Assembly (NCBI GenBank): GCA_963855995.1
Contig: OY979730.1
Span: 2,108,501-2,172,500, forward strand
Direction: 5' to 3'
DNA length: 64,000 nucleotides
Origin: Muricea muricata
Taxonomy: Eukaryota; Cnidaria; Anthozoa; Malacalcyonacea; Plexauridae
Each line of letters starts with the position of its first letter. The first letter of the stretch is position 1. A model generated the notes under the pieces. The model saw only the letters and a list, made by a program, of their open reading frames with translations, searched no databases and had not been told where the DNA came from. Below, piece after piece: positions 12,777-61,500 of the stretch. A program made the position numbers and the translations under genes.

Positions 12777-13045
12777 GGTGATCTCAAAACACGGAAAAGA
12801 AGTGGCACTAGTTGTCAAATAGAAATCCATTTTTCGAGCCTAGCAAATTTCTCATTAAGTATAATTTACTTCGGTTCCAAATTTCTGGTGGACTTATAAT
12901 TTTCTTTACTGAAGATGATTACGAAGTTCAACAAGTTTGATAAAGGAAAACAAAAGATATAAATGTTTAAAAACAGCAAAATGGATCTTTATTTGGTAGC
13001 TATTTCCAGGCCTTTTACTCACGGTCAGATCAGCTGGATAATATA
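12777..13045 (-). mobile_element. MITE family R1, copy 1
   Basis: A unit of about 265 bp with imperfect terminal repeats of about 50 bp: one end carries ACTAGTTGTCAAATAGAAATC, the other CTAGCTACCAAATAAAAATC (read inward). Full or partial copies occur at 21484, 22505, 54515, 58160 and 60122, with a fragment at 11770. It has no coding capacity. This copy lies in the broken gene duplicate and is matched by the R1 copy at 22505, so it was present before the duplication. Confidence 0.7.
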
Positions 13046-13559
13046 CACTAAGATTAAAACAGACCAATGAGAGCAGAAGAAACTCCGTTGAGTATATAAA
13101 CTCCAAGTAACACCACAAGCATCATTTTAACCTGAGTTAAAGAACCTGAGAGAGATAATAATTATGATTAAAAATATTTTTGCATGCATTTTCAATGTTA
13201 CTTGAAAATGATTAACTGTCAAGGGACTCTTACTTCGTTTGTTATTTTCAAAGTTATACATGCTTTAAAGCACTTGCATATCCATTGTTCCTGGAAAGCG
13301 TCTGGATGACAATTGTAATGATTATGACATCATTGCGATGGGGGTCTAGTGATGTCATTAATAAAATTCGCATTGCATGCGAGAACACTGTCAACGTGTC
13401 CGTGTTTACTTGCATCAAGCCAGTAAAATCCACAACTTGCATCATGACTGTGGCGTTTCTGACTGTAATAAAAGGGACTGGGATCAGACGCGTGCCGTTA
13501 TCTCTTGTGAGTTGCGTGGAAGAAACTGATTTTACGTGATACTCACGTGACATTTGTTG

Positions 13560-21000: not shown

Positions 21001-23380
21001 CAAAATTTGATCGGCTCAAGAAAATGTCGAGGAAATCAAATGTTACGTAACATAACTTTTCCACATATGCCGTCATCTTAAGAAAGGTTAGTTGTGTAAA
21101 CCTCATGCAAATGAACCTCGAAAAAGTCAGTTGCAGACGCTAATGATTATGACGGTTACGTATAACTGAGTAAAATATAATAACATATAATCAGAGACAG
21201 GGAACAGGGTTAGCTCCTCCGTTGTCCAAACAGTAGTGTGAGGGGCTGCGTCAGACTACTACTCGCCAACAGACATTGCACAATTTATGTAGTTTTAACG
21301 TCCTTATCGAAGAGAACGCGAAATGCTTGCCACTTACTGATGTCGATGTAAAGGCAGCCCCTTCTCATCTATTATTTTAAGACCTCGAGTGGAGGTCCGA
21401 TCAAGGTTTAACCACTGGCCTCCCAACTTGGACGACGAGGGTGGCAACCACAACATCACACATTGATGAAATGATCAGATAGTTTCTAATCTGGCCGTGA
21501 GTAAAGACCTAGGACTAGCTACCAAAAAGAAATCCATTTTGCTATTTTTAATCACTTATATCTTTTGTTTTCCCTTGTGAAACTTGTTGAAACTTAGTAA
21601 CTGTCTTTAATAAAGAAAATTATAAGTCTGCCAGAAATTCACAAACAAAGTAAATTATATTTTATAAGAAATTTGATAATTTGGATCGAAAAATGAATTT
21701 CTATTTGAAAACTATTGCCAGTACTTTTCCGTGTTTTCAGATCAACAGGTTATTTGTGCAAGTCCGTGATTTTCCATAAAACATTTTAATTTGTTTTAGT
21801 CTTTGGACGTACAATGCTTCCAAACTATTGAATGAATGGCATTTCATTGCAGTCGTTTGGGATTCTGGTAAACTCGAGAGTTATAAAGATGGAATCTACA
21901 AACTGCACAGTACGACATTCCAAATTGCTCACACCATCCTTATAAGAAACTGGTAATAACCTACAGTGCTCTAACTAGACTTGTTGACATTGGACCTTAA
22001 AAGTGTATGAAATTCTAAAATTTCAATCACGATTACATTCGGAAGTGGATCTTGTACTCATTGAAACTCTTGCTTCTCATTTCTCATCAACTGCATTCTC
22101 GTTTAACCAGGAATTTGTGATACCCTATGTTAAAAAGTTAGCCAGTGATCTCCCAAAAGTTATGAGTTTCAATGCAGTCAATGTTCTGGAACTGGAAGGA
22201 ATGTTTACAGCAGAGTGCGTGGATGCGAGTTAATTAATTAACCTAAGATGATTTTCTCTCCACAGGCTTATTGGAAGTCGCAATTCAAGTCTGGTTGGAA
22301 GTGTTACTGGTGCGAACGTGTGGTTCAGAGCTCTGAATCCTGCAGAAGTTCGGACCTTGTCTAGAGGAGTATACAACGTGTTGTCGTTCTTAAACTGGCC
22401 TAACTGGGGCTCATTTTCTCAGAATGGCGCAGGAGATGTTGCACTATTTAGCAGAAGCAACATGTATCTTCCCAGTTAGTTCCCAACATCTCTCTACATC
22501 TATGTGATCTGAAAACACGGAAAAGAACTGGCACTAGTTGTAAAAAGAAATCCATTTTTCGAGCCTAGCAAATTTCTCATTAAGTATAATTTACTTCGGT
22601 TTCAAATTTCTGGTGGACTTATAATTTTCTTTACTGAACATGACTACAAAGTTTCAACAAGTTTGATAAAGGAAAATAAAAGATATAAATGTTTAAAAAC
22701 AGCAAAATGAATTTTTATTCAGTAGCTAGTTCCAGGCCTTTTACTCACGGTCAGATCAGCTGGATAATATACACTAAGATTAAAACAGACCATTGAGAGC
22801 AGAAGAAACTCAGTTGAGTATATAAACTCTGAGTAACACCACAAACATCATTTTGACCTGAGTAGATAACACCAAGACGTATAATAATTATGATTTAAAA
22901 TATTTTTGCACGCATTTTCAATGTTACTTGAAAATGAGTAACTGTCAAGGGACTCTTACTTCGTTTGTTATTTTCAAAGTTATACATGCTTTTAAAGCAC
23001 TTGCATATCCATTGTTCCTGGAAAGCGTCTGGATGACAATTGTAATGATTATGACATCATTGCAACGGGGGTCTAGTGATGTCATTGATAAAACTTTCGC
23101 ATTGCATGCGAGAACACTGTCGACGTGTCCGTGTAACTACTTGTTCGATTCTTTTGTAGACTATGGCCTTCAACTAACACTAGACGATTTCTGTCAAGAG
23201 AATGCCAAAGATGCAAAGAGTTGCAATGGACGATTCCATGCACGCATTGGACTGCAGAAAGGAAGAAAGTATGGCTGTTTTTGCGCCACTGATTTGTCCC
23301 ACGATTCAAATTTCAATTTTGGACCTGGTAATTATACCGCATCTGAAATTCTGGGTGATTTAGCTAATCCTTACAATTAA
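15074..23380 (+). CDS. Secreted PAN/apple-EGF-EGF-laminin-G repeat protein
   Basis: This is probably an extracellular adhesion or recognition protein. Thirteen coding exons join in frame (876 aa): 15074-15403, 15547-15592, 15759-15872, 15957-16067, 16672-16891, 17369-17739, 18507-18753, 19170-19404, 20191-20329, 20684-20918, 21800-21952, 22266-22474, 23160-23380. Residues about 35-105 form a PAN/apple module (CMADCW, CQSFNY, CELN). Residues 126-163 and 164-200 are EGF modules, CESNPCQNNGIC and CKSSPCNGGIC. Residues 201-397, 398-605 and 605-804 are three laminin-G/pentraxin-like domains, with DDNRWHLFVIVI, HRVTITWTNLGGVLEVIVD and NEWHFIAVVWDSGKLESYKDG. Residues 804-876 form a short Cys tail that I do not recognise. 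The start is uncertain: ATG 15074 follows an AG and may be an acceptor, so an upstream exon may supply the signal peptide. Reading past the donor at 22474/22475 gives an early TAG at 22477. Confidence 0.82.
15425..15540 (+). repeat. ATC/ATT-rich microsatellite in intron 1
   Basis: Irregular tandem CATCAT/CATTAT units lie between exons 1 and 2 of the PAN-EGF-LamG gene. Open frames across it are low-complexity artefacts. Confidence 0.75.
16091..16355 (+). mobile_element. tRNA-derived SINE in intron 4
   Basis: The head has pol III-like boxes: A-box region GTGGTTAGACC at about 16111 and B-box region GTGGACTCGATTCTC at about 16141. A conserved-looking central part follows (ACTCCGGTTCCCTCCC at about 16223), then an A/T-rich tail of AAAT and AGAT units. 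Head, body and tail together are typical of a SINE. It lies sense in the intron between the second EGF exon and the first LamG exon. Confidence 0.65.
16370..16655 (+). repeat. G/T-only satellite (TGG-rich, strand-asymmetric)
   Basis: About 285 bases of irregular TGGTGG/TGTGGT units in which the plus strand has very few C or A. It directly follows the SINE and ends just before the acceptor at 16671. The His/Thr-rich minus-strand frames across it are artefacts. Confidence 0.8.
21484..21750 (+). mobile_element. MITE family R1, copy 2
   Basis: Plus-oriented member of the same family as 12777-13045. It lies in the intron just upstream of the exon at 21800. Its left end reads CTAGCTACCAAAAAGAAATCC and its right end contains CTATTTGAAAACTATTGCC, slightly diverged from the other copies. 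Confidence 0.65.
22505..22765 (-). mobile_element. MITE family R1, copy 3
   Basis: Minus-oriented copy in the last intron of the PAN-EGF-LamG gene. It is the counterpart of the 12777 copy within the duplication. Confidence 0.7.
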
Positions 23381-32300: not shown

Positions 32301-33856
32301 ATATAGAATAATTATACGAACTATGGGGACATTAAAAATCGCATATCAATTGCAGTCAAGGAACAAAGGAATCGTGTATACCCCTATACTAATAAGAAAC
32401 AAAGAAATAGTGTATACCCCTATGAATCAGGGCCAGATTACGCGGAGAGTGGGCTAAGATTCAGCCCCCTTAGTTTGGATAAAAATTTAGCCTGTCCCAG
32501 TTATAAAATTCTAACAAAAGCCATCGGCCAACTCCGGCCTGGACAAGTTACAACACGGGTTGAAATTGAAATTTCAACCTGGTTGACGCTGGCTGGTTCG
32601 CCGAGATGAAGAATTGTCACGTAATCGACCGGAAATTTGAATTGTGAAACAATTTCACGGAGCTGAAATTCTCCATGTAATCGATCCCTTAGAATGTCAG
32701 GTCTATTCTCGCTTTTACCAAGATTGAGAGTAAGTCTCGACATCACCTAAATTCGTCTGTTATCATTACTGACTAAAAAAATGCAAATTAAGTTTTATAT
32801 ATTATGAAAATAAATGTACGAAAATAAAGGTAAAGGGTGAACTTTTATTCCAGAGAGTTCACAGTGCAAAAGCGAAGTTTAGATATGGAATCATGCTGTA
32901 TACAGGCTGTGTTTCGGTGTATGCCTTAGCAGTTTACAATCATAATATAGTCTCAAGACCTTTTTAAATTTTACGCTTGTTTAATAGCGATTTTCTATTT
33001 TCGTTTTTCAATGTCATTGGTTAGCGTTGTCTAAGCGGGCCCCTTATGGTAGACATGCTGTACCACCTAGTTTCCATTTGGTCGTAATTGTTGTGGCAAA
33101 GTCATTCTCGACGATGTGATATAGTCCAGATCTACCTTTTCTTTTGTGGGCTGTATTCAAATTAGTCATACTAAGTGTAGTGTATCTGTGAACATACTTT
33201 ATCACATTGGTCACTTTGTTCATAGTTAATAGAGCTAGATGGTTTGGAAACTCATTAGAACTACAATATAAGTCATTATCTATGCTTTTGTTCTGGTTTA
33301 TGCAGGAATGAGGTCCTTCGTCGTCACGTGCGTATTGTATTTTCACCTAACTCAGCAATAGCAACGTTTCAGGAAATTTAGCCATCCGCGACTTAAACAA
33401 TAGGGTAATTTAAGAATTCTTATTGGTGGATTTGGTGAAAACACAATACACATGTGACGATGAAGAACCATATTTTTTGCATAAACGTTGACCAACATAG
33501 ATAATGAGTTATATTGTTATTCTAATGAGTTTCCAAACCACCTACTCTATTAACTATGCTTTGTTATATTCAAGACTAAATGGAACTAGACTTCACTAAG
33601 TATTCTATTAAGTATACATACTATATATACTAAAGACATTCATTTAGTATCCTAAAATTCTGAGTATCTTAAAATTTTAACTATATACTAATTTTAGGAC
33701 GCTCTTTTCAACTGTGGTGAAAGATTTTGCTGGTTTTGCGTGGTTCAAAATTTAGTCTATTATGGGGATGCCTATTAGATTCGTTTTTATGGACAATTAA
33801 CTAATGAGATTAATTAATTATACCTAAATAACAAATGAGATTAACGAGATAGACAG
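29349..33856. other. Gene-free, repeat-rich interval
   Basis: It contains a run of more than ten G at about 29648. A copy of the 4925 MITE lies inverted at about 30590-30780. Several stretches (31080-31330, 31540-31900, 31920-32110) reappear inverted within 42880-45230. The 81-codon minus frame at 32501-32746 has protein-like composition but no recognised family. Positions 33090-33240 belong to a repeat also found at 60890-61020. Confidence 0.5.
30590..30785. mobile_element. Second copy of the MITE found at 4925
   Basis: It matches 4925-5055 in inverted orientation, including CTAATAAAGC against GCTTTATCAG, and continuing to TTGTATAAGCCGGGAAA against TTTTCTCGGCTTATACAA. The hairpin loop of the first copy is not complete here. 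Confidence 0.55.
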
Positions 33857-34915
33857 AACAAGATGGGAAAGAATATCGATCTAAGAAGTGAATCACTGGG
33901 CGTGTCCATCCGAAGATGTCAAGATACAAAATACTATCAAAATGTACGGTTTGTCAAAGTCATTTACAATCAAATTTTCGTTTAGTTTCCAATACTTAGA
34001 ATATCTTGTAGCATTAATTTTTTTCTTATTTTATGATAGTTGACTGGATATGAGTGAGCTTGTTACCTAATAGCTTGATGTTCTATGAAAAGAGAATTCC
34101 AACCAGTTGAAACAATAAACAGCATGATGAAACGAGACCGAGCGAAGCAACAAAGATCGAGTGAAAGTAAGTTTGTTCATTTTATCTTGCCGTGCCCATT
34201 TTCGTTGTCAGTTCAGCTGTCGTTTCAATAAAAATTAATATCACGAACTAACACAAATACATAGGATCTTTCACTGCCTGAAACTATATAAACAGTATTA
34301 TAATAACTTTAGCGGGCATTGTGACGTTTTTGCGGGCTAAAATAGACAAATCAGCGGGCTAAAATATATTTTAGCCCGCTGTCTAGGACCTGTATAGGAG
34401 TTTGTATGCATTTCATTTGCCACAAGTAATCTCAACTGTTTTAGGGTAAAATGACCATGCCGGTCAACATGGCATATGTGCCAAAACCTGAATCCGGGGC
34501 GAAAGTCCTCAAAATGACCCCGCCTTGAAACGGCACTGTCGACATAGCTCTAACCTCAGACCAATGCAAGCAACGGCATTTCTGAAGTGCCTATAGTGTT
34601 TAGAAGAGTTGCTTATAGGGGTGGTTATTAGAAGCAAAACATTGCCTAACTATAATATTTTCCTAGAAAATCACCACTCAACATGCTAGGTCAGCAGCTA
34701 ATTATGCATAAAATCCCTAAAATCGCTGGCAGAAATTAAATTTTCATATTTCCTAAAAAAAAATTATTATAACATGAAAAACCATGTTCAATTGTATCCA
34801 ATTCGTGCAGATTTCAAAAGGATTGACATTATCTTGTTAATATACAAGGCACTGTATTTCACTTACCCCCCGCAAAAACACGATTTCAGCCATATTTTCC
34901 GTCTTGTTTGCTTTT

Positions 34916-35137
34916 TTATCGCCGACTAGCCGACGTCTCATACAACTCTTGTACTTTTCCGTAATCACAGATGACTAAAGAACAATTCAGCCCAGTTTCG
35001 ACTTGTTCTGAGACTGTGCCATCTACTTTAGCTCCGATTTTTTTTCCTCGACAATTAGCCAAAATTGCCGCTATTACGAAGTCTTGCCACTTTTCTGTCC
35101 GATAAATGTGGCTTCTTCGTCTTTGTGTGTATTTATA
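34916..35137 (-). CDS. Exon-like frame in the left arm of foldback B
   Basis: Seventy-three sense codons lie between an upstream TAG and a TAA stop. The frame includes HIYRTEKWQDF, AAILANCRG, KVDGTVSEQVE and CSLVICDYGKVQELYETSAS. It has no ATG; the TAG just upstream could serve as a splice acceptor. About 40 bases past the stop is a donor-like GGGGTAAGT. I recognise no family. The mirrored frame in the other arm has the same protein with mostly silent or mild changes. Confidence 0.4.
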   Translation of the reverse strand, partial: YKYTQRRRSHIYRTEKWQDFVIAAILANCRGKKIGAKVDGTVSEQVETGLNCSLVICDYGKVQELYETSASRR

Positions 35138-35895
35138 CTAAGTAATCCAACAGTACTTTATACTATTGAATTTCTGAAGGTCATTTTGGTAAATTTGATC
35201 AAATTTCAGTATAAAAATCCACCCACATAAAATCGAGTCTCTTCGAGCTTTAAAATAATTTGAAAGTCACGCGCAATCGTCACGAAAATTCCTCGTGGGC
35301 GACCATACCGGGGGGAGTGAATATTTTCACGAATGCGTTTGCATGTATATATTTGCGTATTATTTTGTTTTTAAGCTTTAACTACAAGAAAATCTGACAG
35401 TTATGCATTTCTCCCATGTTTATTTTGAGGGCTATGCCAGTGCAGATACGTACGTTTCAATTTTAAAATCTTAGTGGGCTAATAGTGGCTTTTAGTGGCT
35501 TATATACTTAGTTATTTCATACTTTGGCATAATAAAAATCGCCCTTCAAATAAAAATGGGGAAATGCGTAAGTCTGTCTGATTTTCTTTTAGTTGAAGCT
35601 TAAAAACAAAACAATACGAAAATAAACATGAACATAGAATAATATGAAATGTTTACTTGGCTTGCTGTGGAAACGAGCAAACGTATTCGTGAAAATATTC
35701 GCTCCTTCGGTATGGTCGCCCACGAGGAATTTTCGTGACGATTGCGCGTGACTTTCAAATTATTTTGAAGCTCGAAGACACTCGATTTTATGTGGGTGGA
35801 TTTTTATATTGAAAATTGATAGAAGTTTACAAAATCACCTTTAGAAATTCAATAGTATAAAGTACTGTTGGATTACATAGTATAAATACACATGA

Positions 35896-36102
35896 AGACG
35901 AAGAAGTCACATTTATCGGACACAAAAGCGGCAAGACTTAGAAATGGCGGCAATTTTGGCTAATTGTCGAGGATGCAAAATCGAGGATAAAGTAGACAGC
36001 ACAGTCTCAGAACGAGTCGAAAATGGGATGAGTTGTTCTTTAGTGATCTGTGATTATGGGAAAGTACAAGAATTGTATGAGACTTCGGCTACTCGGCGAT
36101 AA
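35896..36102 (+). CDS. Exon-like frame in the right arm of foldback B
   Basis: Sixty-eight sense codons, with an internal ATG at 35944 and stop TAA at 36100-36102. The frame includes HIYRTQKRQDL, AAILANCRGCKIEDKVD and CSLVICDYGKVQELYETSAT. It is the mirror copy of 34916-35137. A donor-like GGGGTAAGT lies about 60 bases downstream, and a second short frame starting at ATG 36123 runs into it. It may be a captured host exon or a remnant of the element's own gene. Confidence 0.4.
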   Translation, partial: RRRSHIYRTQKRQDLEMAAILANCRGCKIEDKVDSTVSERVENGMSCSLVICDYGKVQELYETSATRR

Positions 36103-36718
36103 AAAAGCGAACAAGACGGAAAATGGCTGAAATAGTGAAATCGTGTTTTTGCGGGGGGGTAAGTAAAATACAATGTCTTGTATATCAACAAAATAATGTC
36201 AATCCTTGTGAAATCTGTAAGAATTTGATTCAATTCAACATGGTTTTTGATGTTATAATAATTTTTTTTAGGGAATATGAAAATTTAATTTCTGCCAGCA
36301 ATTTTAGTGATTTTATGCATAATTAGCTGCTGACCTGGATGTTGAGTGGTGATTTTCTTGGAATATATTATAGTTAGGCAATGTTTTGCTTCTAAAAACC
36401 ACCCCTATAAACAACCCTCCTAAACATTATAGGCACTCCAGAAAGGCAGTTGCTTGCATTGGTCTGAGGTTAGAGCTATGTTGACACTGCCTTTTCAAGG
36501 CGGGGCCATTTTGAGGACTTTCGCCCCGGATTCGGGTTTTGGCACATATGCCATGCTGACCGGCATGGTCATTTTACCCTAAGACAGTTGAGATTATTTG
36601 TGGCAAATGAAATGCATACAAACTCCTATACAGGTCGGAAGCCATTTAATTGTATTTGTTTTTTTGAAAAACAAAGCTAAAGTTAAACTTTAAAAGGGCT
36701 TTAAAGTTATTATAATAG

Positions 36719-36856
36719 TAATAGAGTTGATGTTCTTGGGCATAAATATGTTTTTGGCCCTCCTCAGAGCTCATTTTAACCCTCGCTACGCTCGGGCTAA
36801 AATGATTCTGAGTCGGGCCAAAAACATATTTATGCCCGCGAACGTCAACTCTATTG
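36719..36856. mobile_element. Short palindrome between foldbacks B and C
   Basis: AATAGAGTTGA and GGGCATAAATATGTTTTTGG on the left are inverted on the right around a GC-rich turn (CGCTACGCTCGGG). It is about 138 bp with arms of about 60 bp. Confidence 0.7.
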
Positions 36857-39667
36857 TTATATTCGACGTTTCGAGCGAAAGCCCTTTGTCGGGAAGTTAG
36901 TTTAAACGTTAGTGATCCATTGCTATATTTTCTACTATGTTTTGTTATGTCACGCCTGTTACCTTATTTTAAGTTTTAACAAAAAAGGCCCTGGAGGGTA
37001 CCTAATTAGAGTGGACCTAATTAGGTTTCCAGGTTCAATTCCTGGAGCCACACAGATTTGCACTTGTACAAACTATGACAAGCATAGAAGCAAGGTGAGT
37101 ATACTAAATATTAGCCAAGTAGTGGGACTAGGCATAGAAGTAAGGGTGAGTATATTAAATATAGACAAGTACTGGGTGCTTACAATTATAACTAATTTCA
37201 CCAAGAAGAATTTCGTAGCTTTATAGTTCTCCTTGATGTCTAGTTGTTGCGCTTAACATTAGGTAAGTTTATGTGACATTGCCATTAGTTAACTCTAATC
37301 TAATTTAGTTAGTATACTAGAGTTACCTTAGTTAACTAAAGGTAGTCTAGTCTACCTTAACAGTAGACACTAGAGAGTTACGTTAGTTAAACTAATGTGG
37401 AGTTTGACTCTACCTTAGTTAACTAACGTAACTCTCTAGTGTCTACTATTAATGTAGACTAGACTTACTTCAGTTAACTAAGGTAACTCTTAGTACTAGC
37501 TATAGTATATTAGAGTTACCTTAGTTAATAGAAGTCTAGTCTAGTCTACCGTTACAGTAGACACTAGAGATTTACGTTAGTTAACTAAGGTAGAGTCAAA
37601 CTCCACATTAGTTTAACTAACGTAACTCTCTAGTGTCTACTGTTAAGGTAGACTTAGACTAGACTTCTATTAACTAAGGTAACTCTAATATACTATAGCT
37701 AGTACTAAGAGTTACCTTAGTTAACTGAAGTAAGTCTAGTCTACATTAATAGTAGACACTAGAGAGTTACGTTAGTTAATTAAGGTAGAGTCAAACTCCA
37801 CATTAGTTTAACTAACGTAACTCTCTAGTGTCTACTGTTAAGGTAGACTAGACTACCTTTAGTTAACTAAGGTAACTCTAGTATACTAACTATAGTAGAT
37901 TAGAGTTACCTTATGCGCATGTCATATAAACTTACCTAATGTTAACCGTAATAACTACACAGCAATGAGAACTATAAAGCTACGAAATTCTATGGGGTGG
38001 TAAGGGTGGCGGGGTGGTTAGTGGGATTAGTTATGACTGTAAGTACCTACAGTACTTAGTACTGTAGTACAGTACTAAGTACCTACTAAGTACAGTACTT
38101 AGTAGGTACTAAGTACTGTGCTTAGTACCTACTAAGTACTGTACTTAGTAGGTACTTAGTACTGTGCTTAGTACCTACTAAGCACTGTACTTAGTAGGTA
38201 CTTAGTACTGTACTTAGTACCTACTAAGTACAGTACTTAGTAGGTACTTAGTACTGTACTTAGTACCTACTAAGTACAGTGCTTAGTAGGTACTTAGTAC
38301 TGTAGTACAGTACTAAGTACCTACTAAGTACAGTACTTAGTAGGTACTAAGTACAGTACTAAGTACCTACTAAGTACAGTGCTTAGTAGGTACTAAGCAC
38401 AGTACTTAGTGCCTACTAAGTACTGTACTTAGTAGGTACTTAGTACTGTACTACAGTACTAAGTACTGTAGGTACTTACAGTCATAACTAATCCCACTAA
38501 CCACCCCGCCACCCTTACCACCCCATAGAATTTCGTAGCTTTATAGTTCTCATTGCTGTGTAGTTATTACGGTTAACATTAGGTAAGTTTATATGACATG
38601 CGCATAAGGTAACTCTAATCTACTATAGTTAGTATACTAGAGTTACCTTAGTTAACTAAAGGTAGTCTAGTCTACCTTAACAGTAGACACTAGAGAGTTA
38701 CGTTAGTTAAACTAATGTGGAGTTTGACTCTACCTTAGTTAACTAACGTAACTCTCTAGTGTCTACTATTAATGTAGACTAGACTTACTTCAGTTAACTA
38801 AGGTAACTCTTAGTACTAGCTATAGTATATTAGAGTTACCTTAGTTAATACAAGTCTAGTCTAAGTCTACCTTAACAGTAGACACTAGAGAGTTACGTTA
38901 GTTAAACTAATGTGGAGTTTGACTCTACCTTAGTTAACTAACGTAAATCTCTAGTGTCTACTGTAAAGGTAGACTAGACTAGACTTCTATTAACTAAGGT
39001 GACTCTAATATACTATAGCTAGTACTAAGAGTTACCTTAGTTAACTGAAGTAAGTCTAGTCTACATTAATAGTAGACACTAGAGAGTTACGTTAGTTAAC
39101 TAAGGTAGAGTCAAACTCCACATTAGTTTAACTAACGTAACTCTCTAGTGTCTACTGTTAAGGTAGACTAGACTACCTTTAGTTAACTAAGGTAACTCTA
39201 GTATACTAACTAAAGTAGATTAGAGTTAACTTATGGCAATGTCATATAAACTTACCTAATGTTAAGCGTAACAAATAGACATCAACGAGAACTATAAAGC
39301 TACAAAATTCTTCTTGGTGGGATAAGTTATAGTTGTAAGCACCCAGTACTTGTCTATATTTAATATACTCACCCTTACTTCTATGCCTAGTCCCACTACT
39401 TGTCTTATATTTAGTATACTTACCTTGCTTCTCTGCTTAGCATAGTTAGTATAAGTGCACATCTGTGTGGCTCCAGGAATTGAACCTGGAAACCTAATTA
39501 GGTCCACTCTAATTAGGTACCCTCCAGGGCCTTTTTTAAACTTAGTAATATGGTTGCAGGCGTGACATAGCAAAACATAGTAGAAAACATAGTATTATAA
39601 TAGATCACTAAAGTTTAATACTAACTTCCCGACGAAGGGCCTTCCCTCGAAACGTCGGATTCTGTTT
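36857..39667. mobile_element. Element C: 2.8-kb palindrome built of nested palindromes
   Basis: The ends CGACGTTTCGAG (left) and CTCGAAACGTCG (right) begin two arms of about 1.4 kb symmetrical around position 38259. Matching pairs at several depths all give the same centre: 37253/39264, 37921/38598 and 38035/38484. Each arm also contains its own palindrome of about 690 bp, centred near 37598 and 38919. These are made of repeated TTAGTTAACTAAGG, ACTCTCTAGTGTCTACTG and GTAGACTAGACT units. The core 38041-38480 is tandem AGTACCTACTAAGTAC/GTACTTAGTAGGTACT, itself self-complementary. Each arm has a T-arm-like CCAGGTTCAATTCCTGG (37030 and its mirror). There is no real coding capacity. Confidence 0.85.
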
Positions 39668-40154
39668 AAATAGTTTAAGGCAGTGAAATATCCTATGTAT
39701 TTGTGTGCTTTTGACCGCTATACCAACACATGCAACGTAGGTTTGTGATGTTAATTTTTATGGAAACGAAAGCTGAACCGACAACGAAAATGGAAACGGC
39801 AAAAAAAAATCAACAAACTTACTTTCACTCTATCTTTGGATCATTGTGGCTTCGGTTGGTCTCGTCTCATCATGGCTTCAACTGGTTGGCATTCTCTCTT
39901 CATGGAGCACCACGCCAGTAAGTAACAAACTCTCTCATGTCCAAGTCAACCATCATAAAATAAAAAGAAAATCAATATTACAAATATTTTGAAATATTAG
40001 AAACTAAACGAAAATTTGATTGTAAATGACTTTGACAAACCGTACATTATGATAGCATTTTGCTTCTTGACATTTTCAGATGGACACGGCTAGTGATTCA
40101 CTTCTTAGGTCAATATCGATTCTTTCCCAGCTTGTTTTGTTATTGGTTGGTTCC

Positions 40155-41700
40155 CTTCTTTAGTATTTCATAAAATATTGGAGAAGATAGTATACAAACG
40201 ATTGTACTTATTTTTACAAGAAAGAAAAATATTATATTCTAAACAGTTTGGTTTCCGAAATTCGTATTCTACTTCTTATGCCTTATTAAGTATTGTTGAT
40301 AAAATAAAAAATGCAATGGATAATCGTGATTATGCCTGTGGTGTTTTTTTAGACCTAAGTAAAGCTTTTGATACAGTGAATCATGATATTTTGATTAAGA
40401 AATTATAGTTTTATGGTATTAGAGGTCATGCAAACAAGTGGTTTCTATCTTACCTAACATGTAGAAGACAATTTGTTTCAATTAATAATATTTCATCTGA
40501 AGAACTAATTAGTTCATATGGAGTACTTCAAGGTTCAGTTCTTGGCCCGCTGCTCTTTCTTTTATATATAAATGATTTTGCAAACTGTGCTACAACTTTA
40601 GATTTTCATATCTTTGCCGAAGACTCGAACTTGTTTTTTAGAAGTAATAATCTTTTATCTCTTCAAAATACTTTAAATAATGAATTAACAAAAGTATATG
40701 AATGGTTTTGCGTAAACAGGTTATCTTTAAATATAAAAAAATCAAATTTTGTAATATTTCATCCGAGACAACGTAAAACACTAAATAATATTGAAATAAC
40801 TATTAATGATCAATTATTAAAACAAGAGTATACGATTAAATACTTGGGGTTGATACTAGACTGCAATCTTAGTTGGAAGGATCATATAAGTTTTGTGGAA
40901 AGCAAGGTTAAAAGAAGCATTGGCATTTTATCTAAACTCCGTTACTTTGTTAGTTTAAATACACTAAAAAATCTTTATTATGCACTTATTTATCCCTTTC
41001 TTACATGTGCCTTGATTGTATGGGGATGCACCTATCCTTCTACTCTCCAATCCTTATTTATATTACAAAAACGTTCCATCCGTATTATCACTTTTACTAA
41101 ATACTATGAACATACAAGCATGCTGTTTAAATCTCTCAATATCATGAACTTAATTGACCTGGTAACTTTCCATGTTGCTGTATTTATGAAGAAATTTTAT
41201 GATAAATTGCTACCATTCGTATTTGATGACTTTTTCAGATCAGCGAGTGATGTGCATGACTATAATACTAGGTTTTCTACAAGTCAGACTTTTGGTATTC
41301 CAAAAGCTAGGACCAATTATGGTATTTTTAATATCAGATTTCATGGAGATAAAGTATGGAACTCAATTGCTGATGACGTGAAATATCTTTCAATTAAAAG
41401 ATTTAAGAAAAAAATAAAAGAGGATATGATTGAAAACTATTAATTGTTTGCTTTCTTAGTTTGCTTTTCTTCTTCTTGAAATTCCTAAACAGAGTAAATT
41501 GGTTTTCTCGACGCTAGGAAAAATTTTCTCTTTTTTTGCGAAATTTTCCATACCGACTTTCTGGGTTTTTTTAGCCCTAATGGTTATTATGGAAAGTCGG
41601 TACTCATAGTTTTGCAACTCAAATAATAATAACATCAATGTAAACATTTTTTTATATATGAGTGAAATAAAGAATTTGTTGTTGTTGTTGTTGTTGTATT
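40155..41700 (+). pseudogene. 5'-truncated non-LTR retrotransposon reverse transcriptase
   Basis: One frame of about 420 codons (40178-41443) covers most of the RT domain and the region after it. It contains KILEKIVYKRL, QFGFRNSYST, FLDLSKAFDTVNH, GVLQGSVLGPLLFLLYIND, the catalytic motif written FAED instead of F/YADD, and IKYLGLILD. TAG at 40406-40408 is the only stop inside. The endonuclease and the start of RT are missing, as is usual after incomplete target-primed reverse transcription. The 3' end is a (TTG)n tail at 41677-41697, after ATTTGT. It lies just outside the right arm of foldback A. The clade is probably jockey/CR1-like, not resolved. Confidence 0.88.
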
Positions 41701-41889: not shown

Positions 41890-42280
41890 GCTCAATTAGA
41901 CCTTTAACCTTTTAGACGAAGTTTTGAAAAAATTCGAAACAGGCAAAAATATTACCACATCTTGAAAGAGCATCCTAAACTTAGTATAATTGCAAAGTTT
42001 GGTTGTAAAATGTTGTATACTATAGAAAATATAGCCTTGCGAATTTGGCAAATTTTGTAAACATTTGTATTACCGGTGGAAAATAATACCCAGTTGATAC
42101 CCTTGGGTATTCATTTCTCACGGATATTACAAAACAACACAAAATTTGCTAACATCGCAAGGCTATATTTTCTATGGTTTACAACCAAATTTTACTAAGT
42201 TTAGGATGCTCTTTCAAGCTGTGGTAATATTTTTCCTATTTCGATTTTTTCAAAATTTCGTCCAAAAGGTTAAATGTCCA
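41890..42280. mobile_element. Palindromic MITE
   Basis: Arms of about 180 bp are inverted around a centre near 42085. They share ACCTTT..GACGAA, GGTAATATTTTT (inverted), GAGCATCCTAAACTTAGTA and AGCCTTGCGA. Relatives of one arm occur at 33700-33760 and 45430-45500 (TTTTGCTGGTTTTGC, AGTCTATGATG), so the family is dispersed. Confidence 0.7.
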
Positions 42281-43133
42281 ACAATTACGATGTTTAGAAA
42301 ACTGTTTACAAAATAAGCAAAAAAACGACGTTAATAAGCATTAGAGAGGACTAAGTAATAATCTACTATAATTACCAACCCGAAGCAAAAGTAATGGTTT
42401 TAGGCAGGATGATTACAGTGCAGCTTGTGACATTAGAATTTACTTAAAAATGCACGTTTTTATTTGCGGTGCACTTGTTTAAACCTTAAACGCATGCTTA
42501 GGGCAGCTCGCTGTAAATATGTGTTCTTCTGCGCATGTGTTTTTCTAAAGTTAAAGAGAAATGGTTATCGTCTCATTTGAAAGAGACTCCAAAACAACAT
42601 ATAGAAGTCTATCACAGAATTTTTACATCTGCCTCATTTCATGAAATATTTTGATTTGAGTTGTATTCTTAAGTTGTCCGCCATCTTGGATATTAATGCT
42701 ATGTATGATACGTCACAAGTGGGGTCACGCATTTTTTTCTTCAACGACACAATGATTAGTATGCTCCCATAACCGCACGTACGGTAAGTGTTTCAGATTT
42801 TCGCACGGACTGAAAATGTTTCAAACAATATTTAATTGTTGTTAGGTATTTTGGAGTAGCTTCGACTGGCTTGTCATATCGATAATCAAAGAGGATTCTC
42901 ATTTTAAATAAAGTCAAGTCTCACCACGAGCAGACGCCATCAAAACAAAGCGAGCTGTATCCCCCCCCCCCCAACCCCACTGATTTTTATGATGTATGTA
43001 TGAATCAAATTTAAACGAGACCTAAAAAACAATTTTAGTTGTGTGTCACGTTTTCAATTGCTTTTTATCTTTGCATAATTCTCTTGTATGTTTGACCCAG
43101 CCTGTGTAGACTTTTATAAACATAAGAATACAT

Positions 43134-43263
43134 GGGTGCTCGGAAACACCAGATTCATTTCGAGTGTTGAGCATAATATCTCACGAGTGAGCGCAGCGAA
43201 CGAGTGAGAAATATCATGTTCAACACGAGAAATAAATCTGGTATTTCCAAGCACACATGTTTT
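43134..43263. mobile_element. Short palindromic MITE
   Basis: ACATGGGTGCTCGGAAACACCAG on the left and its imperfect complement on the right enclose a turn of CTCACGAGTGAGCGCAGCGAACGAGTGAG. It forms a hairpin of about 130 bp. Confidence 0.65.
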
Positions 43264-44343
43264 TTCTGTTTATTATATAAACTACAGGTTTTTCATCAAC
43301 ATAAAATGTCCAGAAGCTATGATTGGTGATTGTTTGAAAAGCGATAATTTTCACATGTGGAATTATCATAAATAATCTCACATGTGAGATTATCAGTTTT
43401 ATCAGTGCCCGAAATTCTTATAAAGCACTGTACTTTATATAATAAATCATTCTTATATTTATGCGACCGAAAATGACTGAGTAATCGTCGGTTAAAAATG
43501 ATTGCTCGAAATCAAATCTTCCGTTGATGGGAATTTCAAGTGAGACGTACATACAAAAGTTCATGCAAATTTAGTTAAATAACAAACTTTTACGTAGCAA
43601 AATTTACATAAATTCGCGTTTGTACAAAATTTCATTTGAAAGGCAAATAAATGAACTTTACAAATCAACCCAATGGTGTAAACTACACGGCAAATTTGGA
43701 TTCGAGTTATTTTGATACACTGTACAATGTGTACCAAAAAAAGGCTACCCTTTGAAATCAAGCGCTGGTGGCGCGCGATCCCAATTGAATGTTTTAACTC
43801 CTACAAGGGCCCATTCTGGAGTTATTTAGGCGCAGCAAATTCCAATTATGATCTATGCATTGTTGGGGCTCATTAGGCCGGCTTGACTTCAAAGGGTTTT
43901 TTGGGGACACGCTGTGGCCCCGTTACACTATACCGGATTACATTGGAGCGTCGTGATTCTTATATTAGATAGTTCAGGGCTATTTCAGATCCGCTAGAGC
44001 ACCTAGTTACCAGGACTTGTCCGTGAATTTTCTTAAGAGATAAAATAACCCCTACCCTAAACCTAACCATACACCCAAATCCTAACTCTAACCCTAAAGG
44101 CCAACCCTAAACCTAGAAGTCGAGAAAAAATACGTTAATAAAAAATAATAAAGAAAAAGTCAACGCGGGATTCGAGCCCCAACATAAAACTTGAATCAAC
44201 ACCCACATGTCTTCGTTCCTGTGCTACTCGAGCAATCGCTGATCCATTCAAAAAACAAAACATTTTACTCTGGCGCCAAATAAATTAATGCACATAAGAG
44301 GTGCTATGTGCTATGACGGATCTGAAAAAGCCGTAACCTATCA

Positions 44344-52500: not shown

Positions 52501-55500
52501 GTGATCTGGCATGCGAAATTGCTAGTCTCGACGCACGGTCACATATTCTTTAACCGAGGGACAACAAAAGCCACAAACGAGACGCCCGCTGTGACAATCG
52601 TCATAAGAATCGTTCCAACTAATTCTACCGTAATACGAATGCTGAGAATTTTCAGACCCATGTCTTTCTCACAGCTGGCCATGTACTGAAATAACTGCAT
52701 ATCCTCTTGGGGCAAACCTTCTGACAGGGGGGTGACATCACATCTCTTTGCCACCTGGGTAACCGAGCGATGTATGGCAGCTGATACCACAGCCGGTGGC
52801 AACAGCTTGATGAGTATTGTCACTAGATCGAAGGTGACTCCCCCTGCGTATTGCCATAATTCATAGTGCTTTCCAAATGCATCATCAAAATATGCGAAGC
52901 TAAATATTATTATGTCCAACGCGTGATAACTTACTGCAAAAGATATAATAAAATTGAAGTCCCTCTGTGTCCTGTCTAAAGAGTTTCTTAGTTCCTGTTG
53001 CCTGTATAAAACCTGCACTGGACTGGTTTCTTTACAGCGAGCGATCTCCACGAGGGCATCGATTTGCAAGCTATGAACATGACACACGAATGCGTAAACA
53101 CTAAGCCATACAGCCCACCAACCAGTCGTATATACGATCACAATCGTGTACACTGCCTAGTGCCAAATACTGGAGAAAAATGGCCTCCAATGAAGCGCAA
53201 AGAATACTGCAGACAGCAGCCATAGTGTGACAGAGATCCATGTATAGACCTTGGCTCGTTTGCGCAATATCTCGCGATATCCTGCAGACACGTTTTGCAC
53301 GCTTGACACGAGCTCTGTGAACTGTCCGCGTCTCAAATAAACTTGCGTGAAGACAAACGGGCATAGAAGATTAAGACACGTTGACACGCTGTTGAGAAGG
53401 TCCGCAAAATGTACTTTATTTTTCTTGAATCTGTAGTGGATAAAGTCCAGAGCCATGACAGCAACGAGCGATACAAGCCATAGAACTAAAACGAGAACAT
53501 CGTATATTTTATATATGATCTCCTTAACTTCGACGCTGTCGTCCTGGAGAGCAGGCCGCCACATGCCAAGCAGTTGTAAGAGACAGTAACATGGTCTCAT
53601 ACAGTCGCTTGAGCCTTGAGGTCGCCTTTCTTCGTGCAAAATACAAGTTGAAGACGTAAGCTCGCAGTCTGTATTCGATTTACGATGTTCTACACTGCTT
53701 GAAAGTAACAAATTTGTGTCTATATCACGCTCAGCCATTTCCGCACAGAGGCGTAGGAACGAATTAAAAGTTGGGGGGGGGGCTGAACATACGAGCGCCG
53801 AAGGCGCGAGTTCTGTGGAGGGGTCCGGGGGGAATGTAGAGGGTCCGGAAAATTTTGAAAACTAGAACCCCGGAAATGCCATTTCCGGCGATTTAGGCAC
53901 TTAATTTGGAGTTTATTTTGATTGCAAAAATGAGCTAAATTTGGCACATTTTTTACAAAAAATGTGAATAATGTATAACGATTTCAAGAAAAAATGCATT
54001 AGTTAAAGTTTGGATGTTGATTAGTGAATGTGAATTTTTGATATCTATACTAAATGTTTATTGAAGTCAAATACTGATTTTATAGGTCCTATAACAATGT
54101 AATTAGATATTGACACGAAAACAGGGAAATCTAACATTCTAACCATTCTAACACACTATCTAACACAACATTCACGTGATTAAAATCACGCCGGACGGAT
54201 TTTTTTTGGGGGGGCTTAGCCCCTCCTTACAAAATTTTGGAGGGGCTCGAGCCCCCCAGCGCCCCCTGTTCCTACGCCACAGTTTCCGCATGACAGCAAA
54301 TTGTGACAGTCGAACTGCGCATCACAATAATCAACTCGCGTGATGTTGGCAAGGCGGAATGATATGCCCTGTGGGCCGAATAAATCCTCTAATAGAAAGT
54401 TAATAAATTATTAATTGGGGGAGGGCATGACTACGAACCGTTGCAGAATCCATATAGTTGCGAGAATTTAATAAACATTTAGTGATTTATTTATGGTCTC
54501 TTCAGACAACTAAGTGATCTGAAAACACGGACGAGTACTGACACTAGTTGTCAAACAGAGATCCATTTTTCCAGCCAAACTAGCAAATTTCTCATCAAGT
54601 ATAATTTACTTCGCTTCCAAATTTCTGGTGGACTTAGAATTTTCTTTACTGAACATGATCACAAAGTTTCAACAAGTTTCATAAAGGAAAATGAAAGAAA
54701 TAAGTGATTAAAAACAGACAAATGCATTTTTATTCGATAGCTAGTTCCAGGCGTTCTCCTCACGGTCAGCCGGATCAGCTGGATGTTAGACTTAAAGTGC
54801 TGAACGAAAAGTTTCAGCAAATTGAAACTCGATCCAATATGTGGTGCAACTACGGTGCTAAATATATTTTGAGTCTTTACTAGACTGTCGTTTCCCATCG
54901 CAAAAAAGATTCCCAACTCAAGTTGACGAAATCAGCGTGTTTAAATGAAGTTTTTCCATCTATGTAGCTGGCTACTTCTAATTCTGTACAGTTCTTTCGT
55001 TTCTCTCGCATGCGAGGATTTACCATTATTGAAACGTTTACGGCTCTTATGCATGCATTGCACAATTCCACGGGCAGCGTTTGACATTCAAACCAAGAAA
55101 ACTGAAAGGGAAAGAGCAGAGCTTACTGTAAAATTGATTTGTATTGTTTTGATGTAGGTCGATGAAGACAATGGATATGCCGTTTTTGTTTCCTACGTCG
55201 AGATTTACAACAACTTTATCTATGATCTACTCGAAGACGCGAAACAGGATTTTATTTGTCCCAAGTGAGTGTTTCGGTTTAAAATGCAACATGTTTTTTA
55301 GAAACAAAATGTCGCTTACAAGACTTGATCCTGTTTCAGACCTCCAGTTTCGAAACAGTTGCGCGAGGACAACAATAGAAATATGTACGTTCAAGGCGTC
55401 ACCGAGGTGGAAGTAAAGAGTACGGAAGATGCTTATGCCATGTTCTGGAAAGGTACAGTTTACTGTATGATATAAGCTAATACCTGGTTGTCATATTATA

Positions 55501-58500
55501 GTAGTTTGTGGTGAAGTTTTATTAAGTATCAATTACATTAATAGTTTGAAACCGATGTAAAATATCAATCGCTTGATGACACAAGATCTGGTGGGTTTGA
55601 GCACATATTGGAAAAAACCGACCTCTCTTGCCAAAAAATCTTAAAAAGCTATGTCTGACTGAAAATATAAAAAGAAAAAACTCTGAAAAATACAGACATC
55701 TCGCAATTAAAATTTAATTAAAACAGGACAAACAGTCGAGGCTATTAATTTCCGACTTTGTTTCAAAGTTGGTTTATTTATGACCGGATTTACAAAGTAT
55801 TACTCAAGGCTGATTACATGTGCAGACAATCTAAGTCCTCTCGTTTTTGCCACTGGTAAAGCGATCGTGAAGTATTGTGCGGTACTGTAAATATTTTTCT
55901 GTCCAAAGGTCAAAAGAAACGTCGTGTAGCTGACACTCAACTGAACATGCAGTCCAGCCGCAGTCACAGCGTCTTTACGTTGAAACTCGTGCAGGCGCCT
56001 TTGGATCCTGACGGAGAGAGTGTCCTCTTGGTACGACTACAGTAAATGATCTTTAATTGTGACATTTAAAACATATGGAATGATCAAGAGCCGACACAGT
56101 GATGGTTACAGCGCAATATACCTGTCTTTGATGTAACAGAAAATTTGATTGGCTCCACACTTTCTCCGAGCCAATCGAATTTCGTGTAACATCTCGTGTT
56201 TGAATTTAGGATAAAGATGAAGTGCGTGTTAGTACGCTGTCGATGTGTGATCTCGCTGGATCGGAGAGAACGAACAGAACTAAAGCTGATGGAGATAGAT
56301 TAAAAGAAGCAGGTATTATAAAGTGGTTTTTAGTTGAACTGATGCTTTGTGTGGTCAGTCTGCTGTCTCAGGTGGGGGAATCAAAACTTTTCAGAGTATG
56401 CAGTGGCGTCCACCTTAAGCTCAGTGTCGAGACCTAATTAAAAAGAGGCTTTTTAATTGTCTGTGATACTAGTCGCACTATCACTTAGAGATGTCAATAT
56501 GTATGTGTCATTATATTGATTTTAAAACTTTGTGGGTGTTTTGTTTCAGGCAATATTAACAAAGATTTGATGAATCTGCGTTCATGCTTGGAGATCTTAC
56601 GGGAGAACCAAGCCAATGCAGATGGCTCACAGACTGGAAAGGTTTGTAGACAAAGCCTATTATGATGCCCACGCGATGCTATGTACAATAGTATATTAAT
56701 ATAAAATTTTCCATATTTTAGATGGTTCCATACAGAGAGAGCAGATTGACGCATTTATTTAAAAACTTCTTTGATGGAGAAGGCAAGGTATGGTGTGTGT
56801 ATTAATACGGAGTAATGGTGCAACATTGGTGCCAGTATACTGCCCCGCGTGTAAGAGAATCCGCTGTCCAAATCCGGGAACAATACATCATAGAATCCCG
56901 ACTAACATGCATATTGATTTGACCGAAATCAATCCATTGGTTGTTGTAATTCGCAATTCGCGTGTCAGGATTCGGAAACAACAAGACAAACTTTGGAATT
57001 CATGCATTGGAATCCGAAATCCGTTTTCCATTAAGTCGCTTACCTGCACTTAATACAACTAATTTGAATACAGCCCACAAAGGAAAAGGTATAAATCTCT
57101 GCCTCTGCAGACAGACCATATCACGTCGCCGAGGATAACAATAAGTGTAGATAATGACTCAACTGTGAATTGAGTGAACTGTACCTGTGGACAGTGTAGT
57201 ATTCAGCTGTGTTTTCTTCGATTGATGTAGGTTCGCATGGTGGTGTGCTTGAACCCTAGTGCTAAAGAGTTCGACGAGAGCGTGGTATGTTGTGTTCGCC
57301 AGTGATGCATGTTTTCAGTGTGAAAGTTCTCAAGATCGTAACACCTCGTTGCTCTTTGTCGTCTTTTTAGCACGTCATGAGATTTGCAGAAATTACTCAG
57401 GAAGTTGTCGTCGCTAGACCAACTGGTATCAAGTAAGGGATGATCACGCTTTACGGAATCATTTTGATGTGCTGAAATAGGCGCACCTCATTATTCCTCA
57501 TTTACTAGGAGTACAGATGTTAGTGTACTTGAAACTAAAGGTTGTTGTAATCTTGTTCACTTACAAAATCTTTACAACGTCACAACATTTAACTCGTGGT
57601 CTCTATATTCGTGGTGTTAACTTTCGTTTATACTTTATGTCTGGGAAGTGTCTTCACAGCAGCCAAAATGTTGTAGATATCAAGTATAAATATTCTTGTG
57701 AGGCGAGGCCGATGTTGGTTTCCTTCTGAAGCTTATTGGAAACGACACCATCTGCACATAGCTTCGTTTAAATGCATCAAAATCATCCAACCTGTTATCC
57801 CATCTTGGCTAAGCCTTGCTTTAGCTCTGTACCATTGAAAAACTCCTTACCATCATATCTTTGCAGCTCCAACACTGGACTTGCTCCTGGAAGAAGAAAA
57901 GGTAAGCAATGAATTTGCGTTCTTCTTTCCTTCATGGTTTGTTTCCAACGTGACAACAGTTAAATACTTCCTGAACTTTAGCAAACCAGATGTTCAAAGA
58001 AGCACTGAAAAACATCAAGGAAGATGCATCTGGTATGTTCATTATTTTGGAATAATCGGTATCTACTGTCTGAGCTTACTGATGCACAGAATTAACTTAT
58101 TTGTTAGTACATCATTCTATAGCTTTCTATAGCCAAGTGACCTCTTTTATACTATCCAACTGATCAAAGGCAAAGGCCTGGAAATGGCTACCGAATAAAA
58201 ATACATTTTGCTGTTTTTCACTTATATCTTTTATTTTCCTCAATGAAACTTGTTGAGACTTTGTAATCATGTCCAGTAAACAAAATTAAAAGTCCACCAT
58301 AAATTTGCAACCATGAGTTAAGTTTAAACACAGAAGTTGGCTGGTTTTGACTTCGTGCACATTTCATTTTAGATGGAGTTGGCAATCCTCTGCTTCTTAA
58401 ACCTGTACAAACATTCCCTCCGTTTCCGCTGATAGAGGTAACTGTTACTGGAATTTATGGGGGGGGGGGGGGTCAGAGAAGTGTTGGAGTAAACATGGTT

Positions 58501-61500
58501 GTGATCTGTGTTCTTGCAGATGAACAGCTCCGAGGATTGCATCACGCTGGTGAACCTTCTCAGATACCTTCAAGAACGGGAGAAAAGAAGAGCAACGCTT
58601 GAAAAAGATTTAGAAAGAAAACGTAAGCATTGCAAAATCAAAACAGGTTTACAATATCCACCGTACTGAGCTGGAAGCAAAAATACTCCTTGTTTGCATT
58701 CTTGCCCTGAACAACAAAAAATTCTGCATGGGACTGTTGCAGTTTGTTACGGTCATGCAGCTTTAAAGCGAAGTAGCATGAAATATAGATAAAAAATACC
58801 ACTTTTTACATCCTTTTTTGTTTGTTTGTAGGAGCGACGTTTCGACAGGAACTCGCAAAACTCGACAGTCAAACTTCGGAGAAAGACAGAGTAAATATTT
58901 TTTTTGCAATAATGATTGATAGCTACTTTATCCGTTAAAAAGGTTACGATTAATAACTCTTTTAGGAAATCAAGTTTTTAAACTTGTTTCTGATCAAGAT
59001 TTTTTTCTTTCTAGCTGATATTTGAGTTGCAAGCCGCGAATATTGAAAAAGAAAAGTATGCTTAAATCTAATTTTATACGATCAGTTGATAATCTAATGT
59101 AGGACATAAGTATTTTGAGCGGTAATACTAATGCACACATGAAGTCTGACATTTGAGCGAAAAAATTTAGGTCTCTTCCAACATATACATGTTTTGTGAG
59201 TGGCTGGCTGTATCACAAGACAATATTATAGAAATTAAACTCCTCGAAATAAATTTCAATATTTGCGTGCTTTTACTCTGGATTATTCGAATATCTATGT
59301 TAAGGGAACGCTTCTCCTATCTAACTCGCTTTTTTATTTTCAGAGAAATACAGAAGTTAGAGAGAAGATTGAAAGCATTCTCACAAAAGGTGTGTTCATC
59401 CGAAACTGATGCAGTTCGAGCCCTGCAAATATGTACTAAACCCATTTGTTAAAAATGGCATAGAAATTTAACATGTGTGTATTTGTAGAACGATGCTTTG
59501 CAGAAAACGAATCAGCAACACCAAGAGAACGCGAAGGAATTGCAGACAGAGGTATGTTAAATGTTTGCTGATGATATGATCATTACTGCGAAGTAGAAAC
59601 TTACTGAGTGACTATGCAATTGTTTTGAATAAGAGTTCTCTTGATTATTGGTGATACTGATACAGCCCTGCTTTGTTCCCAGGACTCGGCTCGTTCGTTA
59701 TCTAATAATAATTGCTATATTCTAAAAATATTTAATATACCTAGCTTGACGAGCAGCGGAAGACAATCAGCAAAGAAAAACAGGATCGATTGAAACTCAA
59801 ACAGGTGAGAGAAATGATTCTGCATAAATAAACAAGCAGTAACGTCACAATTCTGCATATGAATCCCAAAGCTAGTAGGTTCGATTCCCAAGCAGGTCAG
59901 GAATATTTTTAGCTTGCCCGGTGTGGATAAAATTTATTATAACACCACAAAATTCATTTTCACTTTAGTACATAACAACGCCAAGATATATAAAAAAAAT
60001 TGACCACAACGATATGTTAAAACACTTTGCCTTGCGATCTTCATTCCTCTTTACTTGTAGACTTTGAAAGGCGTGGTTACTCAAGAAAGAGATAAATGGC
60101 AAAAGGAATGCGTGAGTAAAATGAAAGAAAAAGGCCTGAAACTAGCTACCAAATAAAAATCTATTTTGCTGTTTTTAATCACTAATATCTTGTGTTTTCC
60201 GGTATGAAATTCGCTGAAACTTCGTAATCATTTTCAGTGAAGAAAATTATAAGTCCACCAGAAATTTGGAACCAAAGCAAATTATACTAATTGAGAAATT
60301 TGCTAGTTTGGCTCGAAAAATGGATTTCTATTTGACAATTAGTGCCAGTACTATTCCGTGTTTTCAGATCAACTGGAATATTGCCATCATGCATTATCGT
60401 AGGATCTTTCACCAATGTCGATATAACTGAACTAACGGCATTGGTATAGAACTGTATGTAGAACTACTCGAAGAAGTAAGCATGCTTGTTTTGTTTCAGG
60501 ACAAACGGGTCAAAAATAAAGAATTGGAAATGGAGACAAAGATAATAAAGAGCGAGGAAAAACTGCGACAACTCAAAGAAATCGTCTATAAAGTGAGTTT
60601 ACAAAAAAGAATTCGATGATTTTTGAAGATGTAAACTCGTGTCAATGCACTTGTGTATTACCAACCACTACTCACTTATTTCTTTTCGGAACAGAGTGAC
60701 AAGAAAAATGTAAGGCCATCAATTCGTGGCAAGGGATTCTTCAGGTCTCGATCTCCACCTCCTGTCGCCAAAAAGGTATCTGTCTGTCAATGTTTTGGGG
60801 ATAAAAATAAGATAAAGTTCTCTGATTGGCAGTTGATAGAGTAAAGCCTAGCCTCCATTAAGTCGCGAGTGTCGTCAATATGTCGAAGTGACCGATGTGA
60901 TAGAGTATGTACGCCGATCTACACTTAATATGACTAATTTGAATACAGTCCACAAAAGACAATTTAGATCCAGACTATATCACATCGTCGAGAGTGACTT
61001 TACTAAAGTCACAGCCCAATGGAAACTAGGCTCAAGAGGTAAGAGCCTTCTCTTAAACGATGTTTCTTCTACTAAATTTTAGCCTCCTGTCAAACTTCGC
61101 CACCGACGCTCAAGATCGACTGATTGTTGGCTTGAGCACAAACCTGCTGAAAATTTTGAAACAGGTATTGTGCACGGAGTTTTAAAATTTTACATAAAAT
61201 TTCGGTTAAATATGCAAGGATTGTAGACAAGATATTGTTTAACACCAAACATCGTTGTGGAACGTTAAAGTGTTTGAACATCACAAGTTAAGAAGTTATG
61301 AGCAACATTCCTGTTGTATCATGTGAAAACTAAATGCGTTCGACTGGTATAGTTTATAGAATAAATATCCGGATTTCAATTTACTCTCTCCGTTCAGAAA
61401 CAATCCTTCGTCCTGTGTTGAAGAACAAGAAGACAGTGAACGTTCCAGAAGAAAGACATTTCAAAGAATCTCAGGTATGTATCCCATCGCCCATCGCAGT

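Follow-up and report, generated by a model that had tools for sequence, protein, structure and literature searches.

The window, the whole 64,000-nucleotide stretch of DNA analyzed here, holds a 2.8-kb nested palindrome whose features, with those of its surroundings, are listed in Table 1. This block is an inverted repeat centered at 38259. Its main arms (36981-38214 and 38304-39537) are 1,234 nt each, 98% complementary and 89 nt apart, and a self-comparison of the window showed that the homology between them reaches outward to 36861 and 39660, with the mirrored CGACGTTTCGAG included. Each arm contains a palindrome of its own, made of two halves around an asymmetric 111-nt middle: in P, the halves 37207-37543 and 37655-37991 are 337 nt long and 96% complementary (center 37599), and in P', the halves 38518-38863 and 38975-39320 are 346 nt long and 95% complementary (center 38919). 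The arm palindromes are in turn composed of half-units of about 97 bp, 12 over both arms (6 forward and 6 reverse), which alternate in direction and follow the order A-C-B, B-C-A in each arm; P also shows a 195-bp period repeated 3.1 times. Across all 66 pairs of half-units the mean identity was 0.89 and the minimum 0.82. The four copies of half-unit A are letter-identical, and the four copies of C differ at one place. Between P and P' lies a core array of 413 bp, a length given as assembled.

An ungapped scan of 37200-38300 detected the main center and many core centers, the latter 23 bp or half that apart; the centers of the arm palindromes fell below its thresholds and appear only when a gap is allowed, because of the asymmetric 111-nt middle. 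Symmetry is thus seen at about 23 bp, 97-195 bp, 0.8 kb, and 2.8 kb. Within the block, a BLAST self-search returned 29 non-redundant inverted repeats, compared with none in each of five Markov-simulated 64-kb sequences, which excludes a chance origin of these repeats. An earlier note on this DNA had described the 2.8-kb inverted repeat with a center at about 38259, a palindrome in each arm (centers at about 37598 and 38919) built from smaller units, a core of tandem self-complementary blocks, and symmetry at about 20 bp, 100 bp, 700 bp, and 2.8 kb; all of these observations were confirmed, with the values given here.

Table 1. Coordinates of the nested palindrome, its parts, and its immediate surroundings in the window
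Feature	Position	Strand	Remarks
Older palindrome, left arm	33849-35435		Contains the internal empty site near 34298-34313
Older palindrome, inner piece of right arm	35538-36636		
Small palindromic (MITE-like) element adjoining the block	36720-36855		Self-match 84%
Whole nested palindrome	36861-39660		Includes, from the possible target duplication, up to 4 nt on the left and the matching nt on the right
Possible target duplication, left copy, ATTC	36861-36864	+	Or ATT, 36861-36863
Left tip hairpin, minimal hammerhead-like, 2 core mismatches	36865-36892	-	Descriptor; no Rfam match in 36820-36960
Two neighboring small hairpins, one of tRNA T-arm-like geometry (by eye)	36981-37057	+	Identical between arms
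50-bp direct repeat, 1.9 copies, left arm	37082-37176	+	
Arm palindrome P	37207-37991		Six half-units of ~97 bp, A-C-B, B-C-A
Core array	38048-38460		46-bp units x 8.4; also 23-mers x 18.2, direction alternating
Arm palindrome P'	38518-39320		Mirror of P
50-bp direct repeat, 2.0 copies, right arm	39342-39440	-	
Right tip, same motif as left tip, 1 core mismatch	39629-39656	+	Predicted cut after 39656; no Rfam hammerhead in 39560-39700
Possible target duplication, right copy, ATTC	39659-39662	+	
Older palindrome, outer piece of right arm, severed by the insertion	39659-40143		

Pfam matches were obtained for three of the seven frames scanned in the window, and the EGF and PAN domains present mark the DNA as probably animal, perhaps cnidarian. 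A reverse transcriptase frame (40409-41443; Pfam RVT_1, LINE type by eye) starts just to the right of an older palindrome that surrounds the block. Outside the block, the self-search gave 16 further inverted-repeat rows, two of which are parts of the older palindrome. Other self-complementary elements lie at 5033-5130, 11172-11409, 33221-33558, 41896-42281 (missed by the filter of the self-search), and 43116-43273, and the genome seems rich in palindromic repeats. The window also contains a dispersed repeat family: the blocks 11763-12126 and 12508-13405 recur in the same order, with 91-93% identity, at 21686-22039 and 22240-23134, and have related pieces at 54506-54784, 58163-58313, and 60126-60373.

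The older palindrome, identified in the self-comparison of the window, spans 33849-40143 and carries the block in its right arm. Its arms measure about 1.6 kb without insertions, and their pieces are 82-92% identical between arms. The right arm is broken both by the small element at 36720-36855 and by the block, and the left arm, when reversed, presents the site without either insertion; this empty site lies in the other arm of the same older palindrome and is not an allele. With both the block and the small element removed, the joined flanks were identical to the empty site in 56 of 61 columns, with one 2-nt gap, and the alignment scored 96; with only the block removed, the score was 82, the poorer value arising because the small element stays in. 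Beside its right edge, removal of the block restores the sequence of the host palindrome's other arm. Judged by sequence comparison against the internal empty site in the left arm, the block is a discrete insertion within the right arm of the older palindrome. At its edges lies a possible target duplication of 3-4 bp, ATT or ATTC, which is weak because it is short. Right beside the empty site the two arms of the older palindrome carry different small sequences. The one in the left arm (34299-34386) includes a perfect 30-bp palindrome at 34352-34381 and GGGCTAAAAT-type words. By eye, the flanks of the small element at 36720-36855, TTATAATA and TTATATTC, could be an 8-bp duplication.

When aligned to each other, the arms of the block (within 36865-39656) showed 40 substitutions and 4 gaps in 1,346 aligned bases, mostly toward the outer ends. 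In successive 135-nt steps from tip to center, identity was 90.8, 93.3, 94.1, 97.8, 99.3, 98.5, 99.3, 100, 100, and 97.0%; thus, the outer ~400 nt (three steps) are 90.8-94.1% identical, compared with 97.0-100% elsewhere. None of 20,000 shuffles placed the mismatches as far outward as observed. The gradient is not strictly monotonic, as identity drops to 97.0% in the innermost step, which falls in the core array. Among the transitions between the arms, 17 of 23 keep a G-U pair in plus-strand RNA and 6 do not (P = 0.035, the sole value below 0.05 among 12 comparisons). By part, the counts were 12 to 5 in the outer part (P = 0.14) and 4 to 1 and 2 to 3 in the two arm palindromes. With one of 12 comparisons below 0.05 and the parts weak when taken alone, we do not claim a strand bias; mismatches that keep G-U pairs would fit RNA editing, constraint on a hairpin, or chance.

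An alignment of the four half-palindromes over 474 columns bears on how the nesting arose. While 396 columns are constant and 1 is mixed, 63 unite mirror pairs across the main center (37 substitutions and 26 gap columns, 24 of which form one indel), and no column groups together the two halves of a single arm. Private changes numbered 12 in the two outer half-palindromes versus 2 in the inner ones, the ragged alignment ends being left out. Mirror copies of the half-units are also more similar than neighboring half-units, and the edge of P toward the outer end is related to its edge toward the core, down to AAGTACTGGGTGCTTAC versus AAGTACTGTAGGTACTTAC. On the best reading of these data, the symmetry grew through successive inverted duplications, with an order of events that rests on one copy. 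The ancestor would have been a simpler foldback in which P lay between two outer ends. Sequence near one of these ends could then have been duplicated in inverted orientation, for example by repair or by replication switching template across the hairpin, so that P, core, and P' came to lie in this order between the outer ends. The core array may have grown out of the inner edge of the outer end. Through copying between the arms, the inner part would have stayed alike, the effect being strongest there. A similar step, in which one end is copied onto the other to give TIR1-F1-F1-TIR2, has been proposed for Galileo (PMC3573991).

We consider the block to be, probably, a non-autonomous foldback-type transposable element inserted in the right arm of the older palindrome, a reading that rests on one copy. 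Besides the single copy, points that weigh against this reading are the shortness of the possible duplication, the dip in identity in the core array, and the position of the empty site in the other arm of the older palindrome, where the two arms differ right beside it. It has long terminal inverted repeats, and these are internally repetitive. Stop-free frames in the block reach 106 aa at most, and the block contains no transposase gene, which a non-autonomous member would lack too; any mobilizing enzyme must therefore come from elsewhere. Such an enzyme could be supplied in trans by an autonomous element not seen in the window, and the default assumption, taken from other foldbacks that were compared by structure only, would be a DNA transposase that acts at the tips. 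Within the 64-kb window there is no second pair of such ends, and the possible duplication at the block edges, at most 4 bp, is not one of the Mutator-type 8-10 bp. The suggestion of a foldback transposon made in the earlier note gains support from the long, internally repetitive inverted ends, the empty site, and the absence of a frame above 106 aa.

Two other explanations were an artifact and a host hairpin locus. Chimeric palindromes are known to form during whole-genome amplification (PMC6218980), and the earlier note had raised the worry that the symmetry was made during assembly. However, the 40 substitutions and 4 gaps that separate the arms are graded along the arm, and the block edges agree with the internal empty site. 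This is not how a mirror of one arm made during assembly would look, and because the arm divergence is graded and the edges are definite, the worry is unsupported; an artifact of assembly or amplification mirroring one arm is very improbable. It is hardly more probable that the locus is a host hairpin maintained to make small RNAs or double-stranded RNA. P alone is predicted to fold into a near-continuous RNA hairpin of -611.5 kcal/mol over 785 nt, but a long palindrome of whatever origin folds likewise, and the block is an insertion amid repeat-rich DNA. The earlier note had proposed that such DNA could extrude large cruciforms, block replication, or make long double-stranded RNA; the prediction made here covers the RNA hairpin of one arm palindrome. 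Moreover, the best 150 of 170 Rfam microRNA matches were all below the gathering score, a search at the gathering score returned none, and we take the microRNA-family matches in the core array to reflect its self-complementarity. Descent of the two hairpins at 36981-37057 from a tRNA was likewise rejected, with no ARAGORN call and no tRNA in Rfam at the gathering score. The fold z-score of these hairpins is an ordinary -1.31. The hairpin region contains a run of 84 identical aligned positions (one gap ignored), which was reached by 1,075 of 20,000 shuffles of the outer arm; therefore, selection is not claimed.

A further set of explanations turns on the tips of the block; on paper, each tip forms a small hairpin that is hammerhead-like on the outward-reading strand. 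The catalytic core of hammerhead ribozymes follows the consensus CUGANGA ... GAA ... UH. A descriptor of a helix-III-poor hammerhead, composed after the motif was seen and with bulges allowed, gave a single match in the window at one core mismatch or fewer, which was the right tip with its cut at the element edge, and five matches at two mismatches or fewer, including the left tip; the background in 60 simulations was 0.05 and 0.62 per 64 kb, respectively. By this post hoc descriptor the tips have the minimal geometry, in which stem II is present, stem I is short, and helix III is nearly absent. An intact core is at neither tip, with one position altered at the right and two at the left, and Rfam found no hammerhead in the two tip regions. 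The tips may, speculatively and from their sequence, resemble decayed minimal hammerhead ribozymes of the Penelope-like kind with a cut site at the element edge. Two further matches in the window were discarded. The exact 9-mer GACGTTTCG also occurs at 58836 (three occurrences in the window versus 0.12 expected), where by eye it has no hairpin or inverted partner. At 11283 there is a CTGANGA...CGAAAC match, of a kind that 8 of 100 shuffles contained at least once, and the fuller hammerhead descriptor did not return it.

These tips raise the alternative that the block is a non-coding retroelement mobilized by a Penelope-like element (PLE), in which the outward hammerheads, now decayed, would have trimmed RNA of either strand at the element edge before its reverse transcription into an AT-rich site. 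PLE hammerheads are described as usually minimal and lacking helix III (PMC6155905), and the PLE PAc favors AT-rich DNA, cutting most often at an ATT motif (PMC11167929); the possible duplication here is ATT(C), and the better descriptor match falls exactly at the right tip. Against this stand the making of the descriptor after the fact, the altered core at both tips, and the blank Rfam result. The two tips, because they are inverted copies, amount to one observation, and a plain hairpin accounts for the same letters. Furthermore, PAc insertion in vitro proceeded without a need for ribozyme cleavage (PMC11167929), and the block, with no frame longer than 106 aa, encodes no PLE reverse transcriptase with a GIY-YIG endonuclease. 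We regard mobilization by a PLE as unlikely. Rather unlikely as well, and a little more so, is that the block is a Penelope-associated, non-autonomous hairpin retroelement whose outward ribozyme ends would give the same end-trimmed, self-folding RNA from both strands, and whose nesting would come from template switching of the reverse transcriptase across its own hairpin; if this were true, foldback structure would arise through RNA, without a DNA transposase.

Relatives of the block were sought in viral and prokaryote sequence collections, although for eukaryotic DNA these are the wrong place to look. The inverted-end patterns had no match in viral or prokaryote contigs, the hairpin-region pattern had none in viral contigs, and a 19-base half-unit word had none in prokaryote contigs. 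A 16-base half-unit word matched 34 viral contigs, once each, and the tip-hairpin pattern matched 7 viral contigs with a GC content of 0.60-0.68, five of which form two groups (of three and two) that share their sequence at the match. We took these 34 and 7 matches as chance because neither the element nor 33849-36640 had a blastn match at 1e-3 in any of the 41 matched loci. Similarly, blastn of 36857-37600 against phages and plasmids yielded no match.

Among known elements, those closest in design to the putative foldback described here include foldbacks with repetitive ends; in the open-licence literature, as far as its texts cover the point, we found no foldback with arms palindromic at several scales, and the phrase "nested palindrome" is used for other things in the texts checked. 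The statement in the earlier note that no family with this nested build was known is consistent with this literature, and the build is unusual. Galileo, a foldback-like member of the P superfamily in Drosophila, resembles the block in having internally repetitive inverted ends of 300 bp to 1.2 kb, in the proposed extension of one end by copying onto the other, and in the exchange inferred among copies; in contrast, it has coding copies, its ends carry direct tandem repeats, and palindromic arms are not described in the sections of the paper concerned (PMC3573991). Tetris, a foldback of Drosophila virilis, is also non-autonomous and has inverted ends with internal tandem repeats of about 220 bp, but its target duplications are 8-10 bp, and the string "palindrom" occurs 0 times in that text (PMC4079207). 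Tm1, a Mutator/foldback element of root-knot nematodes, shares composite inverted ends, internal repeats, and the nesting of one inverted-repeat element in another; it differs in its 9-bp target duplications, repeats of a ~14-bp motif, and asymmetric terminal motifs (PMC3169594). The possible 3-4 bp duplication of the block is unlike those of Tetris and Tm1, and therefore no superfamily is named. PLEs with minimal hammerheads share the geometry of the tip motif and an AT-rich target with ATT, whereas the block has no reverse transcriptase/endonuclease frame, has changed core positions, and has inverted ends; PLEs are described as tandem or partial tandem repeats (PMC6155905, PMC11167929). Set beside these elements, the block offers a readable case of how foldbacks may build long inverted ends, with its layers of inverted duplication, a measurable difference in arm identity between the outer and inner parts, and an internal empty site. 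Should further copies include intermediates of the form outer end, P, outer end, end extension would become directly testable, and tips that proved to be ribozymes would mean that RNA could be another route to foldbacks.
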